DNA from: Candidatus Neomicrothrix sp. UBA7388
GTDB lineage: Bacteria > Actinomycetota > Acidimicrobiia > Acidimicrobiales > Poriferisodalaceae
Direction: 5' to 3'
NCBI GenBank assembly: GCA_002470695.1
Contig: DKNM01000091.1
Location: 1-19,057 of the forward strand
Length of the DNA: 19,057 nucleotides
Positions 7,047 through 12,029 of the stretch are shown piece after piece. Position numbers and translations under genes: made by a program. The notes under the pieces are model-generated. The model saw nothing but the letters and a program-made list of their open reading frames with translations, did no database searches and had not been told where the DNA came from. Positions within the stretch are counted from its first letter, which is position 1. Each line of letters starts with the position of its first letter.

Positions 7047-9140
7047 ATGGACTCGGCAGATCAATCACCACCGATAGCCCCTCGAGAGAATTACATTCGA
7101 GAAGCCCATGGTGAATCAACGCAAGATCCATGGTTTTGGCTTCGAAACCGAGAGGATCCTCGGGTACTTGAATACTTGCGCGCGGAAAACGATTGGACCG
7201 ATTTCTCGACTTCGCATTTAAATGATCTATGCGGAAGCCTTTTCTCGGAAATCAAGTCGCGAGTCAACGAAGAAGATCAGTCAGTCCCGGTTCCAAAGGA
7301 TCATTGGGAATATCTCGTCAGGACGGGCACTGGTCTCCAATATCCGCTCCATATTCGACGTTCGCGCGACCAACCGGAGTCGGAAAAGGTGCTGTTAGAC
7401 GAAAACGAACTCGCCAAGGACGAGGGATACTTCGCTATCGGCGACCTTTCCGTGAGCCCAGATCATAGAAGGCTCGCCTACACCGTTGATACCGAGGGCA
7501 ACGAAGAATACAAATTGACAGTGTTGGACATCGAGAGTGGGCAAGAAATCGACGCCGGTATTGATGGCCTCTCTTACGGCTTAGTGTGGGCTAATGATTC
7601 GACAAATCTGTTCCTAGTTAAAACCGATGATGCTCATCGACCCAACAGGGTGCTGCGCCACGCAGTTGGAACAGCGAGCTCAAAGGATGTAGTTGTCTTC
7701 CAAGAAGATGACGAAAAGTTTTGGGTTGGTATTAGCGGAACGCGCAGTGAGAGCTTCGTCGTAATCGGGAGCGAGTCAAAGATGTCTTCCGAGTATTGGC
7801 TCATTGACGCCAACTTGCCGGAGACAGAACCACGTCTTGTAGAGCCACGTCGAGAAGGACACGAGTACAGAATTTCCCATCAAGGAGACCGGTTTCTAAT
7901 TCTGACAAATGAACAAGCAGTTGATTTCAGGTTGATGGAAGCACCGACTCAAGCGCTTTCCGCCGAAAACTGGACCGAGGTGATACCCCACCGCGAGGGC
8001 GTTCGGTTAGAAGACGTAGATGTCTTTGAGACTTTCATAGTCGTCTCTGAACGTCGTGATGGGGTACCGGCGCTCCGGGTAATCGACTATCTGAGTGATG
8101 TCGAATTTGAGATTGATTTTCCGGAGCCGGTTTATGAGGCCGGGTCCAACGCTAACGCTGAATTTAGGACACGAAAGTATCGATATTCCTACACATCTAT
8201 GGTTACTCCGCCCTCTATCTATGAAATCGATATTGATACGCGGGTCCAGTCGCTACTCAAGCAACAGCAAGTTCTGGGTGGCGTCGATTTGTCTTTATAC
8301 GAAAGTGAACGTTCATGGGCTTCCTCACCGGACGGAACGCAAATTCCCATAAGTCTCGTGTGGCGAAAGGACGTCATTGAGTGGCCCGCCCCTACTGTTC
8401 TGTACGGATACGGCGCCTACGAATTGGGGATACCGGCTTCTTTTTCCTCTGCTCGCCTGTCACTCTTGGACCGTGGCGTTATTTTCGCTATCGCCCATGT
8501 TCGGGGTGGGGGCGAATTAGGTCGAAAGTGGTATGAGGACGGTCGACTAGAAAAAAAGCAAAACACCTTTTCCGATTTTGGTGCCTGTAGGGACCACCTT
8601 GTTGCTTCTGGGTGGTCAGATTCCAAGAGAATCGTCGCACGCGGGGGCAGCGCTGGCGGGTTGCTGATGGGAGTTATCGTGAATCAACGACCGGAGGCAT
8701 TTGCGGGTGTTATCGCTGAGGTGCCGTTCGTCGACAACGTCAATACGATGCTCGATCCAACTATCCCATTGACCATTACTGAGTATGAGGAATGGGGCAA
8801 CCCTCAAGAACTTGAGAGTTTTCAGGTGATGTCTGAATACGGGCCCTACGAGAACGTTGTCGATGCCGATCACCCTGCAATTCTCGTAACCGCTGGACTG
8901 AACGACCCAAGAGTTCAATATTGGGAACCCGCTAAGTGGGTGGCAAAACTTCGTTCAGTCGCAAGCAATGGCCGGCCCTTACTACTTCGAACTGAAATCG
9001 AATCGGGCCATGGGGGCCCCTCTGGACGATATGACGCATGGGAAGAGGAAGCTTTTGTGCTGGCGGTCATCCTTGATTTTCTGACTTGCGCCGATTCCTC
9101 ATATTCCGCTGGAGAAAGCAGCTATAACCAAGAGCACTAG
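7047..9140 (+). CDS. ptrB: Oligopeptidase B (S9A family serine peptidase)
   Basis: A 697-residue cytosolic peptidase, the usual size, expected to cut short peptides after Arg and Lys. The N-terminal part to about residue 400 fits the seven-bladed beta-propeller (segments such as DPWFWLRNREDPRVL, residues 27-41, and SVSPDHRRLAYTVD). The C-terminal alpha/beta-hydrolase domain has YGYGAYE (453-459), GRKWYEDG, RGGSAGG with nucleophile S535, VPFVDNVNTMLDPTIPLTI, the acid D620 in LND, and H655 in SGHGG. E579 and E581 in TEYEEWGNP correspond to the acidic pair linked to basic-residue specificity in enterobacterial oligopeptidase B. This separates it from prolyl oligopeptidase. No signal peptide is seen. 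The start is ATG 7047 without a clear ribosome binding site. The 3' end overlaps the convergent MauE-like gene by 42 bases. Confidence 0.95.
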   Translation: MDSADQSPPIAPRENYIREAHGESTQDPWFWLRNREDPRVLEYLRAENDWTDFSTSHLNDLCGSLFSEIKSRVNEEDQSVPVPKDHWEYLVRTGTGLQYPLHIRRSRDQPESEKVLLDENELAKDEGYFAIGDLSVSPDHRRLAYTVDTEGNEEYKLTVLDIESGQEIDAGIDGLSYGLVWANDSTNLFLVKTDDAHRPNRVLRHAVGTASSKDVVVFQEDDEKFWVGISGTRSESFVVIGSESKMSSEYWLIDANLPETEPRLVEPRREGHEYRISHQGDRFLILTNEQAVDFRLMEAPTQALSAENWTEVIPHREGVRLEDVDVFETFIVVSERRDGVPALRVIDYLSDVEFEIDFPEPVYEAGSNANAEFRTRKYRYSYTSMVTPPSIYEIDIDTRVQSLLKQQQVLGGVDLSLYESERSWASSPDGTQIPISLVWRKDVIEWPAPTVLYGYGAYELGIPASFSSARLSLLDRGVIFAIAHVRGGGELGRKWYEDGRLEKKQNTFSDFGACRDHLVASGWSDSKRIVARGGSAGGLLMGVIVNQRPEAFAGVIAEVPFVDNVNTMLDPTIPLTITEYEEWGNPQELESFQVMSEYGPYENVVDADHPAILVTAGLNDPRVQYWEPAKWVAKLRSVASNGRPLLLRTEIESGHGGPSGRYDAWEEEAFVLAVILDFLTCADSSYSAGESSYNQEH

Positions 9141-9473
9141 ATTTCGAACTACAGAGCTGCTGCTAACAGGGCGCGCTGTCCACCTGCCGAAGCATGCACA
9201 CCTCGGTCTTTCGGTTATTGGTCGACGCATAGCTCTCAACATCGCCACAGTGAAGACTGCGAGAAGCACTTCCGCTGCAATCGACGTCCAAGGGACTCCG
9301 AGTCCTGCGACCAGCAAGGAGCCCAAAAATATTTCTAGGAATGGAAGGGGTTTCGCAAGGAGCCGGGGTGTTCCAAAAGCGGCAGCCGTTGCTGCCCAAG
9401 AAGAATCCCTGATTTTAAGAGCCCCCGATGTGAGAAAGACGACTCCTAGCACTATCCGCGCGAGTGAGACCAC
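9099..9473 (-). CDS. MauE/DoxX-like integral membrane protein with C-A-C-F-G motif
   Basis: A 124-residue protein with four predicted membrane helices (about 4-18, 43-60, 63-80 and 106-122). A CACFG motif (C92, C94) lies between helices 3 and 4. This fits the MauE family, named for methylamine dehydrogenase maturation but widespread in Actinobacteria as a redox-associated membrane protein related in topology to DoxX, VKOR and DsbB-like proteins. No methylamine genes are nearby, so that role is unlikely. It probably moves electrons or disulfides at the membrane. The start is GTG at 9473-9471, nine bases after the flavin reductase stop. The pair is therefore likely co-transcribed. The ribosome binding site is poor and an internal GTG at codon 8 is possible. 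Confidence 0.7.
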   Translation of the reverse strand: MVSLARIVLGVVFLTSGALKIRDSSWAATAAAFGTPRLLAKPLPFLEIFLGSLLVAGLGVPWTSIAAEVLLAVFTVAMLRAMRRPITERPRCACFGRWTARPVSSSSVVRNLVLLVIAAFSSGI

Positions 9474-9482
9474 GGGACCGTG

Positions 9483-9959
9483 CTAGCCGAATGTTCCGTA
9501 GTTTCCTTGGAAAAAAACGAGGGGGGATTTACTTTCCATCACTTTGAGGTCAACAACGCGTCCCACGACAATGTCGTGGTCACCAGCGTCGTGGATGTCT
9601 TCAATCTGGCAGTCGATGAAGGCAATGGATCCTTCAATAATTGGAGAGCCCGTTGACGCGGGGATCCAAGCAACGTCTGCAAATTTATCCTCGGCCCTGC
9701 TCGCCATTACGCCGCAGACGTCCATCTGGTCCTGCCCCATCACATTGACGCAGAAAGAACCCGATTCGCGAATTTCTTTCCAAGAGCCTGAATCTTTGCC
9801 CGGCAGAAAAGCTACTAATGGTGGGTCGAGCGACACTGAGGTGAATGATCCGATCGCCATTCCGATTGGTTTCCCGTTGTTGACCGCCGTCACCGCCGTT
9901 ACACCGGTCGGAAAGTGCCCTAGGACACTGCGAAATACGTCTGATTCGATGCCTGTCAT
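9483..9959 (-). CDS. Flavin reductase family protein
   Basis: A 158-residue FMN-binding split-barrel protein of the flavin reductase (HpaC/ActVB-like) family. It would supply reduced flavin to a monooxygenase or act as a small flavoprotein. Visible blocks: HFPTGVTAVTA near residue 15, the flavin-contacting GMAIGSFTSVSLDPPLVAFLPG, SGSFCVNVM, and the C-terminal GDHDIVVGRVVDL with PLVFFQGNYG. I begin it at ATG 9959-9957 because AAGGAG ends five bases upstream. The GTG two codons earlier overlaps that ribosome binding site. No partner monooxygenase is adjacent, unless the divergent LLM-type enzymes elsewhere in the window use it. It is divergent from the thioredoxin-like/selenoprotein unit with only 26 bases between starts, so the two units may share control. 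Confidence 0.9.
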   Translation of the reverse strand: MTGIESDVFRSVLGHFPTGVTAVTAVNNGKPIGMAIGSFTSVSLDPPLVAFLPGKDSGSWKEIRESGSFCVNVMGQDQMDVCGVMASRAEDKFADVAWIPASTGSPIIEGSIAFIDCQIEDIHDAGDHDIVVGRVVDLKVMESKSPLVFFQGNYGTFG

Positions 9960-9964
9960 AGCCA

Positions 9965-9970
9965 CTCCTT
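9965..9970 (-). promoter_or_regulatory. Ribosome binding site deciding the flavin reductase start
   Basis: AAGGAG on the minus strand, five bases before ATG 9959-9957. It overlaps the alternative GTG at 9965-9963, which argues against that GTG. Confidence 0.6.
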
Positions 9971-9985: not shown

Positions 9986-11500
9986 ATGGTAGCGCCAGAA
10001 GCCAAAAGGAGTCTGTCCGAATTGCTACTGAATTCGGATTATCTTTCTGTCATGACTGTCGATATGACCGAAGTTCTGCCAGACGGATTAGTGGCAATAG
10101 TAAAAAGCGACTGTCCGACTTGTGAGTTAATCGTTCCAGTGTTAGTTCAGCTGGAAAACGCTGCGGATCTCACCGTGGTTACCCAAGACTGCGACACTTT
10201 TCCGGAGGAAATATCGGATCGACATTTCGATGAGGACCTGGCTATGTCATGGCATCACGAAATCGAAACAGTCCCAACGTTAATTAGTGTCTCAGGAGGC
10301 AAGGAAACAGATCGGACTGTTGGCTGGTCACGAAGTAATTGGGAAAAGCTATCCGGCGTTTCGGGTCTCGGTATTAACTTGCCTGAACAGCGACCCGGAT
10401 GCGGCTCGTTGTCCGTGGACCCCAGCCAGTCTGAAGTTCTTGCGGTTCGATTCGGCGACTCCAGCTTCGCGTCACGACGGATCGAGTTCGCTGCTCTCGA
10501 GGATAGTCATGAAGCACTTTTTGACAGAGGTTGGACTGATGGTCTTCCAGTTGTTCCTCCCACCGAGGATCGTGTTCTGAAAATGTTGGCCGGCACAAGT
10601 CGCTCACATGATGAGGTGGTGGCAGTCGTGCCACCTGACCTTGCACCATGCACCGTTGAAAAGATTGCGATCAACGCGGTAATGGCAGGGTGTCGGCCTG
10701 AGTACTTACCGATCGTAATCGCCGCCGTGGAAGCAGTTTGCACAGAGCAGTTCAACATGCATGGGCTGCTCGCCACCACCATGCCTCATGCCCCGGTCCT
10801 CATAATCAACGGCCCAATCGCCAATCAGATCGGCATGAACTCTGGCAACAACGCACTCGGGCAAGGTAATCGAGCTAACAGCACAATCGGCCGAGCAATT
10901 CAACTCATTATTCGCAATGTGGGAGGCGGCCGGCCTGGCGAAGTTGATCGATCGACATTTGGCTCTCCTGCAAAGGTTGGCTTTTGTTTCGCCGAACGCG
11001 AGCACGACTCACCTTGGCCTCCTATGTCAACCACGTACGGTTTCGAAAGCGGCACCAATACGCTTCTAGCCTTCGCCGGAGAGGCCCCAAGGAACCTTAT
11101 TGATCAGCTTTCAAGGGACCCCGAATCTCTGGCTAGGACATTTGCCGCCAATCTGATTTCCATTCAACATCCAAAACTAGTTTTGGGGTTCGATGCCGTT
11201 CTTGCCATCGCACCTGACCACTCTCGCGTCTTCGCCGAAGCTGGTTGGAGTAGAGAACGGCTCGTTGAACGAGTCTTGGATTTGACCACGAGATCCGGAA
11301 TTGACTTAGTGAGAGGGGCCGGAGGTATATCTGAGGGCGTTCCGGAGAGCATGAAAGACGCGGAATTGCCAAAATTTAGGCCAAATGGTCTTCATATTGT
11401 CCATTGTGGTGGCGCGGCGGGCCTATTTTCGGCGATCATTGGAGGGTGGGTGAATGGCGAAACGGGTTCAGACCCTGTTTGTGTTCCGATAACCCCTTAA
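9986..11500 (+). CDS. Thioredoxin-like domain fused to a large conserved domain; partner of the UGSC selenoprotein
   Basis: A 504-residue soluble protein in two parts. Residues about 30-125 look like a thioredoxin fold: a beta strand LVAIVKS leading to C43-P-T-C46, then the cis-proline site TVPTLI (P97), then strand and helix. A linker contains RPGCGS (C139). Residues about 170-504 form a conserved domain with GWTDGLPVVPPTEDRV (182-197), VVAVVPPDLAPCTVEKIAINAVMAGCRPEYLP, MNSGNNALGQGNRAN (284-298), NVGGGRPGEVDR (311-322) and the C-terminal HCGGAAG. I recall this domain in many Actinobacteria and Proteobacteria, without an assigned reaction. It ends 13 bases before the selenoprotein start, so the two are surely co-transcribed. 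A CxxC protein next to a U-x-x-C protein suggests a thiol/selenol redox relay, which is inference. The start is ATG 9986 with a poor ribosome binding site. Met23 or Met27 are alternatives. Confidence 0.8.
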   Translation: MVAPEAKRSLSELLLNSDYLSVMTVDMTEVLPDGLVAIVKSDCPTCELIVPVLVQLENAADLTVVTQDCDTFPEEISDRHFDEDLAMSWHHEIETVPTLISVSGGKETDRTVGWSRSNWEKLSGVSGLGINLPEQRPGCGSLSVDPSQSEVLAVRFGDSSFASRRIEFAALEDSHEALFDRGWTDGLPVVPPTEDRVLKMLAGTSRSHDEVVAVVPPDLAPCTVEKIAINAVMAGCRPEYLPIVIAAVEAVCTEQFNMHGLLATTMPHAPVLIINGPIANQIGMNSGNNALGQGNRANSTIGRAIQLIIRNVGGGRPGEVDRSTFGSPAKVGFCFAEREHDSPWPPMSTTYGFESGTNTLLAFAGEAPRNLIDQLSRDPESLARTFAANLISIQHPKLVLGFDAVLAIAPDHSRVFAEAGWSRERLVERVLDLTTRSGIDLVRGAGGISEGVPESMKDAELPKFRPNGLHIVHCGGAAGLFSAIIGGWVNGETGSDPVCVPITP

Positions 11501-11513: not shown

Positions 11514-12029
11514 ATGACCAAGGTCCTAGATCCAACTAATGAAAACAGACCGGCCGAAATTCCAAGTGCGGATCGTCCGGAATCTTTAGATGGACTCACA
11601 GTCGGTTTGCTCGATATCAGCAAACCACGAGGCGATCGCTTCCTCGACCGAATAGAGGAGCGACTCATCGAACGCGGTTTACGAGTAGAACGATTTCGCA
11701 AACCTACTTTCACCAAACCAGCTCCCGTTGATTTGCGGCATGAGATTGCGACAAAGTGCGACGTCGTTATCGAAGCCCTAGCTGATTGAGGCAGCTGCAC
11801 GTCATGCAGTGTGCATGACATCGCTGACTTAGAACGCCGAGGTCTTCCTGGCGTATTTGTCGCCACTACTCAATTTATTGATGGCGCGGAGGTGCAAGGA
11901 AAAGCTCTGGGGTTCAAACCTTCGGCAGTCTGGGTCGAGCACCCTATCCAAGACCGCACCGACGATGAGATGATTACTATTGCCGACAAGGCCATAGATG
12001 AGCTACTCGAGAGAATTTCCAAGCAGTAG
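11514..12029 (+). CDS. UGSC-family selenoprotein (in-frame TGA read as selenocysteine)
   Basis: A 171-residue protein if TGA at 11787-11789 is decoded as selenocysteine (residue 92). The frame is open on both sides of that codon and ends at TAG 12027-12029. Around it the sequence reads VVIEALAD-U-GSCTSCSVHD, the signature of the UGSC family, a selenoprotein family first described from marine metagenomes. It has U92-x-x-C95 and a further C98. The N-terminal half has LTVGLLDISKPRGDRFLDRI (28-47). The C-terminal half has LERRGLPGVFVATTQF, alternating strand and helix like a thioredoxin-related or Rossmann-like fold. The role is presumed redox with unknown substrate. Support for recoding: the motif, continuity of protein-like sequence after the TGA, and a hairpin directly downstream. 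Cysteine-containing homologues exist in the family, as I recall. Sec machinery (SelA, SelB, SelD, tRNA-Sec) must be elsewhere in the genome and is not in the window. The 3' end overlaps mutY by 27 bases. Confidence 0.9.
11787..11789 (+). other. TGA selenocysteine codon (Sec92)
   Basis: In-frame TGA between GAT and GGC within the D-U-G-S-C motif. A premature stop is the alternative, but it would cut exactly before the family's conserved G-S-C. A hairpin follows at the correct distance. Confidence 0.88.
11792..11826 (+). promoter_or_regulatory. Candidate bacterial SECIS element
   Basis: A perfect 8-bp stem, GTCATGCA (11801-11808) with TGCATGAC (11812-11819), is closed by the loop GTG (11809-11811). 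The loop starts 19 bases after the TGA. Bacterial SECIS hairpins lie inside the coding region a few tens of bases after the UGA and carry G in a small apical loop, as here. An outer 4-bp helix CAGC (11792-11795) with GCTG (11823-11826) can extend it across an internal loop. The stem must also code for S-C-S-V-H-D, so its perfect pairing is under double constraint. Confidence 0.75.

Follow-up and report, generated by a model that had tools for sequence, protein, structure and literature searches.

The window, by which we mean the whole stretch of 19,057 nucleotides analysed here, contains two adjacent genes: a short frame interrupted by TGA, designated ugsc, and immediately upstream of it a longer gene, which we refer to as the partner. 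Their features are collected in Table 1. By visual examination, a ribosome-binding-like GAGGGAGAG is present ahead of the ugsc ATG. Many relatives of the partner protein begin near its residue 23, so that the real start of the partner gene may be at about 10052. Divergently upstream of the pair are genes on the minus strand for a MauE/DoxX-like membrane protein (9099-9473) and a flavin reductase (9483-9965); a flavin reductase also accompanies the UGSC-partner pair in 62 of 80 related loci, a pattern that may reflect synteny alone.

Table 1. Coordinates of the ugsc gene, its partner and associated features in the window
Feature	Position	Strand	Remarks
Partner gene	9986..11500	+	same direction as ugsc, ending 13 bases before the ugsc ATG (by eye)
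Thioredoxin-like domain of partner	10067..10360	+	residues 28-125; CPTC at 10112-10123
Conserved domain of partner	10463..11497	+	Cys236 at 10691-10693
ugsc gene	11514..12029	+	171 codons, one internal UGA (predicted Sec); ATG 11514, in-frame GTG 11811, stop TAG 12027-12029
TGA, predicted selenocysteine 92	11787..11789	+	starts U-G-S-C-T-S-C (UxxCxxC)
Putative bacterial SECIS-type hairpin	11801..11819	+	GTCATGC / loop AGTGT (11808-11812) / GCATGAC; TGA-to-stem gap 11 bases

The interrupted frame and its TGA codon

The original prediction described two abutting frames of 91 and 72 codons in the same phase, with TGA and seven codons for G-S-C-T-S-C-S between them, and this description is exact for the window sequence, in which TGA is followed by GGC AGC TGC ACG TCA TGC AGT. 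The ORF list gives the 91-residue frame; the 72-codon frame is shorter than the minimum length of that list and was taken directly from the DNA. When TGA is read as selenocysteine (Sec), ugsc specifies 171 residues with Sec at position 92, and the UxxCxxC motif is made up of U92, C95 and C98. The assignment of this joined product to the UGSC family was upheld by two models, both above cut-off: PF24696 matched residues 3-168 (146.2 bits, cut-off 25) with an E value of 1.4e-42, which is far from chance, and NF041046 gave 150.6 bits (cut-off 125). The UGSC family (PF24696, NF041046; the 'UGSC-containing protein' of the GOS survey) has been known since at least 2008, and the window gene is a member of it, with the same full-length match, the UGSC motif, and Sec with rarer Cys forms; the window gene itself differs in nothing from the family. 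As described in passages of PMC2398784, UGSC ranked with the commonest selenoproteins of the GOS ocean survey, with 255 Sec forms versus 21 Cys forms in the samples, and passages of PMC5330540 mention UGSC-motif selenoproteins in Geodermatophilaceae with a tRNA-Sec of anticodon CUA.

It had also been anticipated that gene callers would report such genes as fragments, and this is what the databases contain: 109 of the best 120 proteins (of 3882) cover only 46-59% of the query. Among the same 120, ten proteins cover at least 87% of the query, and at the Sec position five of these have Cys, two Trp and one Arg, the remaining two being a protein without the region and one that is out of frame across the Sec position. 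The Trp and Arg copies are single sequences from contigs of about 1 kb.

For comparison at the DNA level we assembled 108 loci, of which named contigs supplied 80 (the best of 409 candidates) and whole genomes 28; the window itself is one of the 108, and they are mostly close relatives. The codon at the Sec position was TGA in 104 of these loci, TGC in 2 and TGT in 2, so that homologues carry a TGA or Cys codon at residue 92, as anticipated, in 108 of 108 loci; the Trp and Arg database copies run counter to this. The motif U-G-[STAC]-C with TGA is present in 103 loci and Cys in 4, and the one other locus, L126, has TGA with U-G-G-C. The source genome has three UGSC genes, all with TGA.

The source genome (2.3 Mb, 144 contigs, 91% complete) was also searched for selA, selB, selD and tRNA-Sec, as had been suggested with the original prediction, and all four were present: a tRNA-Sec with anticodon TCA (66.3 bits, cut-off 47), selA (390.5 bits) with selB (284.7 bits) immediately downstream on one contig, and selD (351.4 bits). 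The selD frame (L018, G000:C16:27599-28540) has an in-frame TGA inside its profile match, so that selD is probably a selenoprotein gene too.

Across 396 sampled genomes of the phylum, UGSC was above the cut-off in 27 and below it in 2 more (G196, G271), and 367 genomes had no match. We sought selA in the 27 UGSC genomes and in 20 genomes without UGSC (the nearest 20 of the 367), and it exceeded the cut-off in 22 of 23 genomes with TGA-type UGSC, in 1 of 4 genomes lacking TGA in their UGSC matches, and in 4 of the 20 without UGSC. Cys is read directly in three of the four genomes that have no TGA in the UGSC match; the fourth is G136. The single genome with TGA-type UGSC in which selA was not found, G036 (94% complete, 4% contamination), has the usual hairpin at its UGSC locus (L108), and the likely cause of the absence is an incomplete bin or contamination.

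Bacterial SECIS elements are hairpins located shortly after the UGA, with a G early in the apical loop, and are absent in Cys forms. We observed a hairpin of 7 bp, 12-30 bases past the TGA, with a loop that is mostly AGTNT. Over 81 distinct TGA sequences, 548 of 567 cells hold standard pairs (slid controls, 13-307), the second loop base is G in 80, and three of the hairpin pairs show changes on both sides. It should be noted that most bases of the hairpin belong to codons for conserved residues as well, and hence only synonymous changes speak for RNA structure. Such changes occur at the pair formed by the third positions of a Ser codon and a His codon, which covary in the 108 loci: TCA..CAT occurs 25 times, TCG..CAC 50 times, TCG..CAT, which would retain a G-U pair, 3 times, and TCA..CAC not at all (0). 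When placed on a tree of the partner proteins, the two third bases switched together in 4 of 4 independent cases (p 0.125, too few for significance). Of the TGA genes on the tree, 99 of 102 have at least 6 of the 7 pairs, versus 0 of 4 Cys genes; the TGA genes with fewer than 6 pairs are L101 (4 pairs; a paralogue in the source genome, on C75), L115 and L121. The energy of the hairpin alone is unremarkable (z -1.56, with 17 of 200 shuffles as good).

The paralogue L101 (also L133; G000:C75:74021), with the motif YGHUGSCTSGT, has kept TGA but has neither the usual hairpin nor the AGT codon in the loop, and its SECIS, if any, appears to be of another shape. A relative of L101 in G113 (L179) has the same odd sequence downstream of TGA. 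At another UGSC paralogue of the source genome, on C44 (L132), a masked stretch of N lies to the 3' side, inside about 10.9-11.4 kb.

In the aggregate, the family scores, the Sec machinery, the TGA/Cys pattern and the covarying hairpin lead us to conclude that ugsc almost certainly encodes a UGSC selenoprotein, as had been proposed; the UxxCxxC motif, the downstream hairpin, the operon partner and the similarity to GrdB and PrdB described below are additions to the original prediction.

The partner gene and its surroundings

A match to the partner accompanied the UGSC blast match in 108 of 108 loci and, in the sample of 396 genomes, was found in 27 of the 27 with UGSC above the cut-off; one genome of that sample (G183) has the partner without UGSC. 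The partnership is very probably a constant one, and the proposal that the two proteins act together is strongly supported on these genomic grounds. A fusion of UGSC to a domain called 'Unknown_1' is mentioned in the literature, and this domain may be the partner described here or a different one.

Residues 28-125 of the partner, with C-P-T-C, resemble the thioredoxin/TlpA/DsbE domains, but differ from these known systems in being fused to a 350-residue domain. The latter, conserved domain is without a Pfam or NCBIfam match, and its Cys236 is invariant in A6 (13 of 13). On the tree, 91 of 106 partners have a detected thioredoxin-like domain, a distribution with a single change; in this clade the partner carries the CPTC-containing domain, whereas constancy is a property of the other partner domain. 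With regard to the glycine and proline reductases, in which the partner subunit (GrdE or PrdA type) bears a pyruvoyl group, the UGSC partner showed no similarity to GrdB (0.2%), no glycine-reductase families were among the Pfam matches of 47 partner proteins (E 0.1), and no profile match of the GrdE or PrdA type was obtained.

There is a fourth partner copy in the source genome (L190, G000:C46:14490-15554), which has the CPTC domain, and no UGSC was found near it within the 11 kb examined. In G183, which is without a UGSC hit, the partner-type locus (L191, on C272) consists of two long frames, each with two tandem partner-type domains.

Around 22 distant loci, 94 neighbour ORFs included those for acyl-CoA dehydrogenases (4), CoA-transferases (3), amidohydrolases (3), P450 (2) and transporter parts. 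These neighbourhoods fit catabolism, though the families are common ones.

Predicted fold and probable kinship with GrdB and PrdB

The structure model of UGSC (mean pLDDT 94.7) consists of five strand-helix units, in which Sec92 is located between strand 84-90 and helix 93-108, i.e. after the third strand. The best structural matches are to flavodoxin, receiver, TIR and other Rossmann-like folds, and the Foldseek matches listed have TM scores below 0.5 by query length. The thioredoxin fold has a C-terminal strand-strand-helix arrangement; judged by the predicted order of elements, there is no such C-terminal strand pair in the UGSC model. From the model, UGSC is predicted to consist of one Rossmann-like domain that stands alone and has Sec where its third strand ends. 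This disagrees with a passage of PMC2398784 in which the UGSC fold is called likely Trx-like. It perhaps disagrees also with PMC13188914, one sentence of which groups with Trx-fold selenoproteins a protein that may or may not be UGSC.

We scanned 42 UGSC proteins against the 18950 models of NCBIfam at E 0.1 and observed matches to GrdB (25), GrdF (22), the wider selenoprotein B (14), GrdH (9) and PrdB (2), the best E value in the scan being 1.2e-6. The unrelated model PRK08931 was also matched, by 4 of the 42 proteins, with a best E value of 5.5e-4. For profile comparisons, GrdB genes were obtained via PF07355 and their frames extended past TGA, as the GrdB ORFs stop exactly at TGA in 13 of 13 full-length PF07355 matches. 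When UGSC was aligned by hhalign with the C-terminal regions of 10 GrdB and 7 PrdB-like proteins together, the result was 93.1% (pairwise E 3.1e-7) with Sec placed on Sec; with GrdB alone it was 28%, with the PrdB-like proteins alone 65%, and with reversed-profile controls 0.2% and 0.5%. All 13 full-length Pfam GRDB matches (L137-L149) break off immediately ahead of the Sec codon, as if the model had been built from TGA-cut proteins.

The similarity extends to arrangement. In UGSC, UxxCxxC is located at a strand end before a helix (U92, C95 and C98, with the strand and helix given above), as expected of the GrdB/PrdB family, and by eye the order strand-U-helix-G(I/L)P-strand is common to UGSC, GrdB and PrdB. 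Passages of PMC13188914 describe a UxxCxxC motif in GrdB and call PrdB a homologue of GrdB. The actinobacterial GrdB proteins examined here have UGTGTRC or UGTGTRS, not UxxCxxC as in UGSC. The Sec-centred profile match is shared with GrdB, GrdF, GrdH and PrdB. UGSC differs from GrdB and PrdB in having only 171 residues and in lacking the GrdB N-terminal domain (the three matches to PF07355 in the source genome include none of its three UGSC genes), and it is far below the GrdB and PrdB cut-offs (20.9 versus 602.2 bits for TIGR01917). By score and domain content, UGSC is outside the GrdB/PrdB family, and the kinship is remote; from the profile evidence, we consider it likely that UGSC is distantly related to the Sec-bearing domain of protein B of glycine, sarcosine and betaine reductase (GrdB/F/H) and of the D-proline reductase PrdB.

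The source genome also has three PrdB-like short frames, with UPVC, UPLC and UPVC, which resemble UGSC in C-terminal layout and differ from it in the UPxC motif and in extra N- and C-terminal sequence. In each of these (L157, G000:C142; L158, G000:C117; L159, G000:C75:43866) the PrdB pattern continues past TGA and a hairpin is predicted after the TGA, and they are probably three more selenoproteins.

Possible roles of the pair

The best explanation overall, to which we assign a probability of roughly 0.6, is that UGSC is a selenoprotein related to GrdB and PrdB that works with the upstream partner as a selenoreductase. Taken separately, the claim that UGSC and the partner constitute a two-protein selenoreductase stands, in our estimation, at about even odds. 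In such a system, the UGA at 11787 would be read as Sec by SelB and tRNA-Sec, aided by the downstream hairpin, and the partner domain would bind and activate a small organic substrate. Attack on this substrate by the Sec selenolate would leave Sec bonded to Cys95 or Cys98 in a selenenyl sulfide, which the thioredoxin-like CPTC domain of the partner could re-reduce; in clades whose partner is without this domain, a separate thioredoxin may serve as reductant instead. More tentatively, the pair may represent a previously unrecognised selenoreductase in actinobacterial catabolic loci, a counterpart of the glycine and proline reductases of anaerobic amino-acid fermenters, in which the partner with its invariant Cys236 would replace the substrate-activating subunit and the fused thioredoxin domain would be a built-in electron donor.

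The UxxC motif, the thioredoxin-like domain fused in the partner and, if UGSC is what its sentence refers to, the grouping with Trx-fold selenoproteins in the available text of PMC13188914 are also what one would expect of a general thiol-disulfide oxidoreductase or antioxidant, in which UxxC acts on disulfides or peroxides and the Trx-containing partner donates electrons. We regard this as unlikely: the predicted fold of five strand-helix units does not have the C-terminal strand pair, and the thioredoxin domain is not detected in every partner while the other domain is constant. The large size of that constant domain and the invariant residues in it suggest, moreover, that the substrate is a specific one.

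A still smaller likelihood attaches to the proposal that the partner is itself the enzyme, be it a lyase, a hydratase or another enzyme of catabolism, with UGSC as an accessory that supplies a nucleophile, a selenium or metal ligand or an electron carrier, without reductive cleavage of the GrdB/PrdB type. The CoA-transferases, acyl-CoA dehydrogenases and amidohydrolases at distant loci would suit such an enzyme, as would the partner copy on C46 that has no UGSC nearby. The sole fold match of the partner at E 0.001 was the fumarase alpha subunit 7xky_A, over the conserved part, but this match (E 7.1e-4, TM 0.22) is too weak for use, and the near-perfect co-occurrence of both genes together with TGA in 104 of 108 loci argues that Sec is central. 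That TGA is a true stop, in a gene that either has decayed or encodes two short proteins separately, would account for the fragments from standard gene callers and the few database copies with Trp or Arg, but is highly improbable in view of protein similarity that runs through TGA in 104 loci (up to 94% identity in relatives), Cys in its place in 4 loci, a whole Sec machinery in the genome and a hairpin that covaries at synonymous sites.

In the open-licence literature, as far as its text was available and with subscription papers outside our scope, we found no function for UGSC and no account of the constant partner, the non-Trx fold or the link to selenoprotein B. Gene calling splits genes of the ugsc type and loses what is likely an active-site residue. 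Its constant partner in the operon, together with the probable tie to selenoenzymes of a superfamily with known chemistry, changes UGSC from an orphan to one member of a testable pair, and the apparent distant kinship with GrdB and PrdB suggests which chemistry to test for UGSC.
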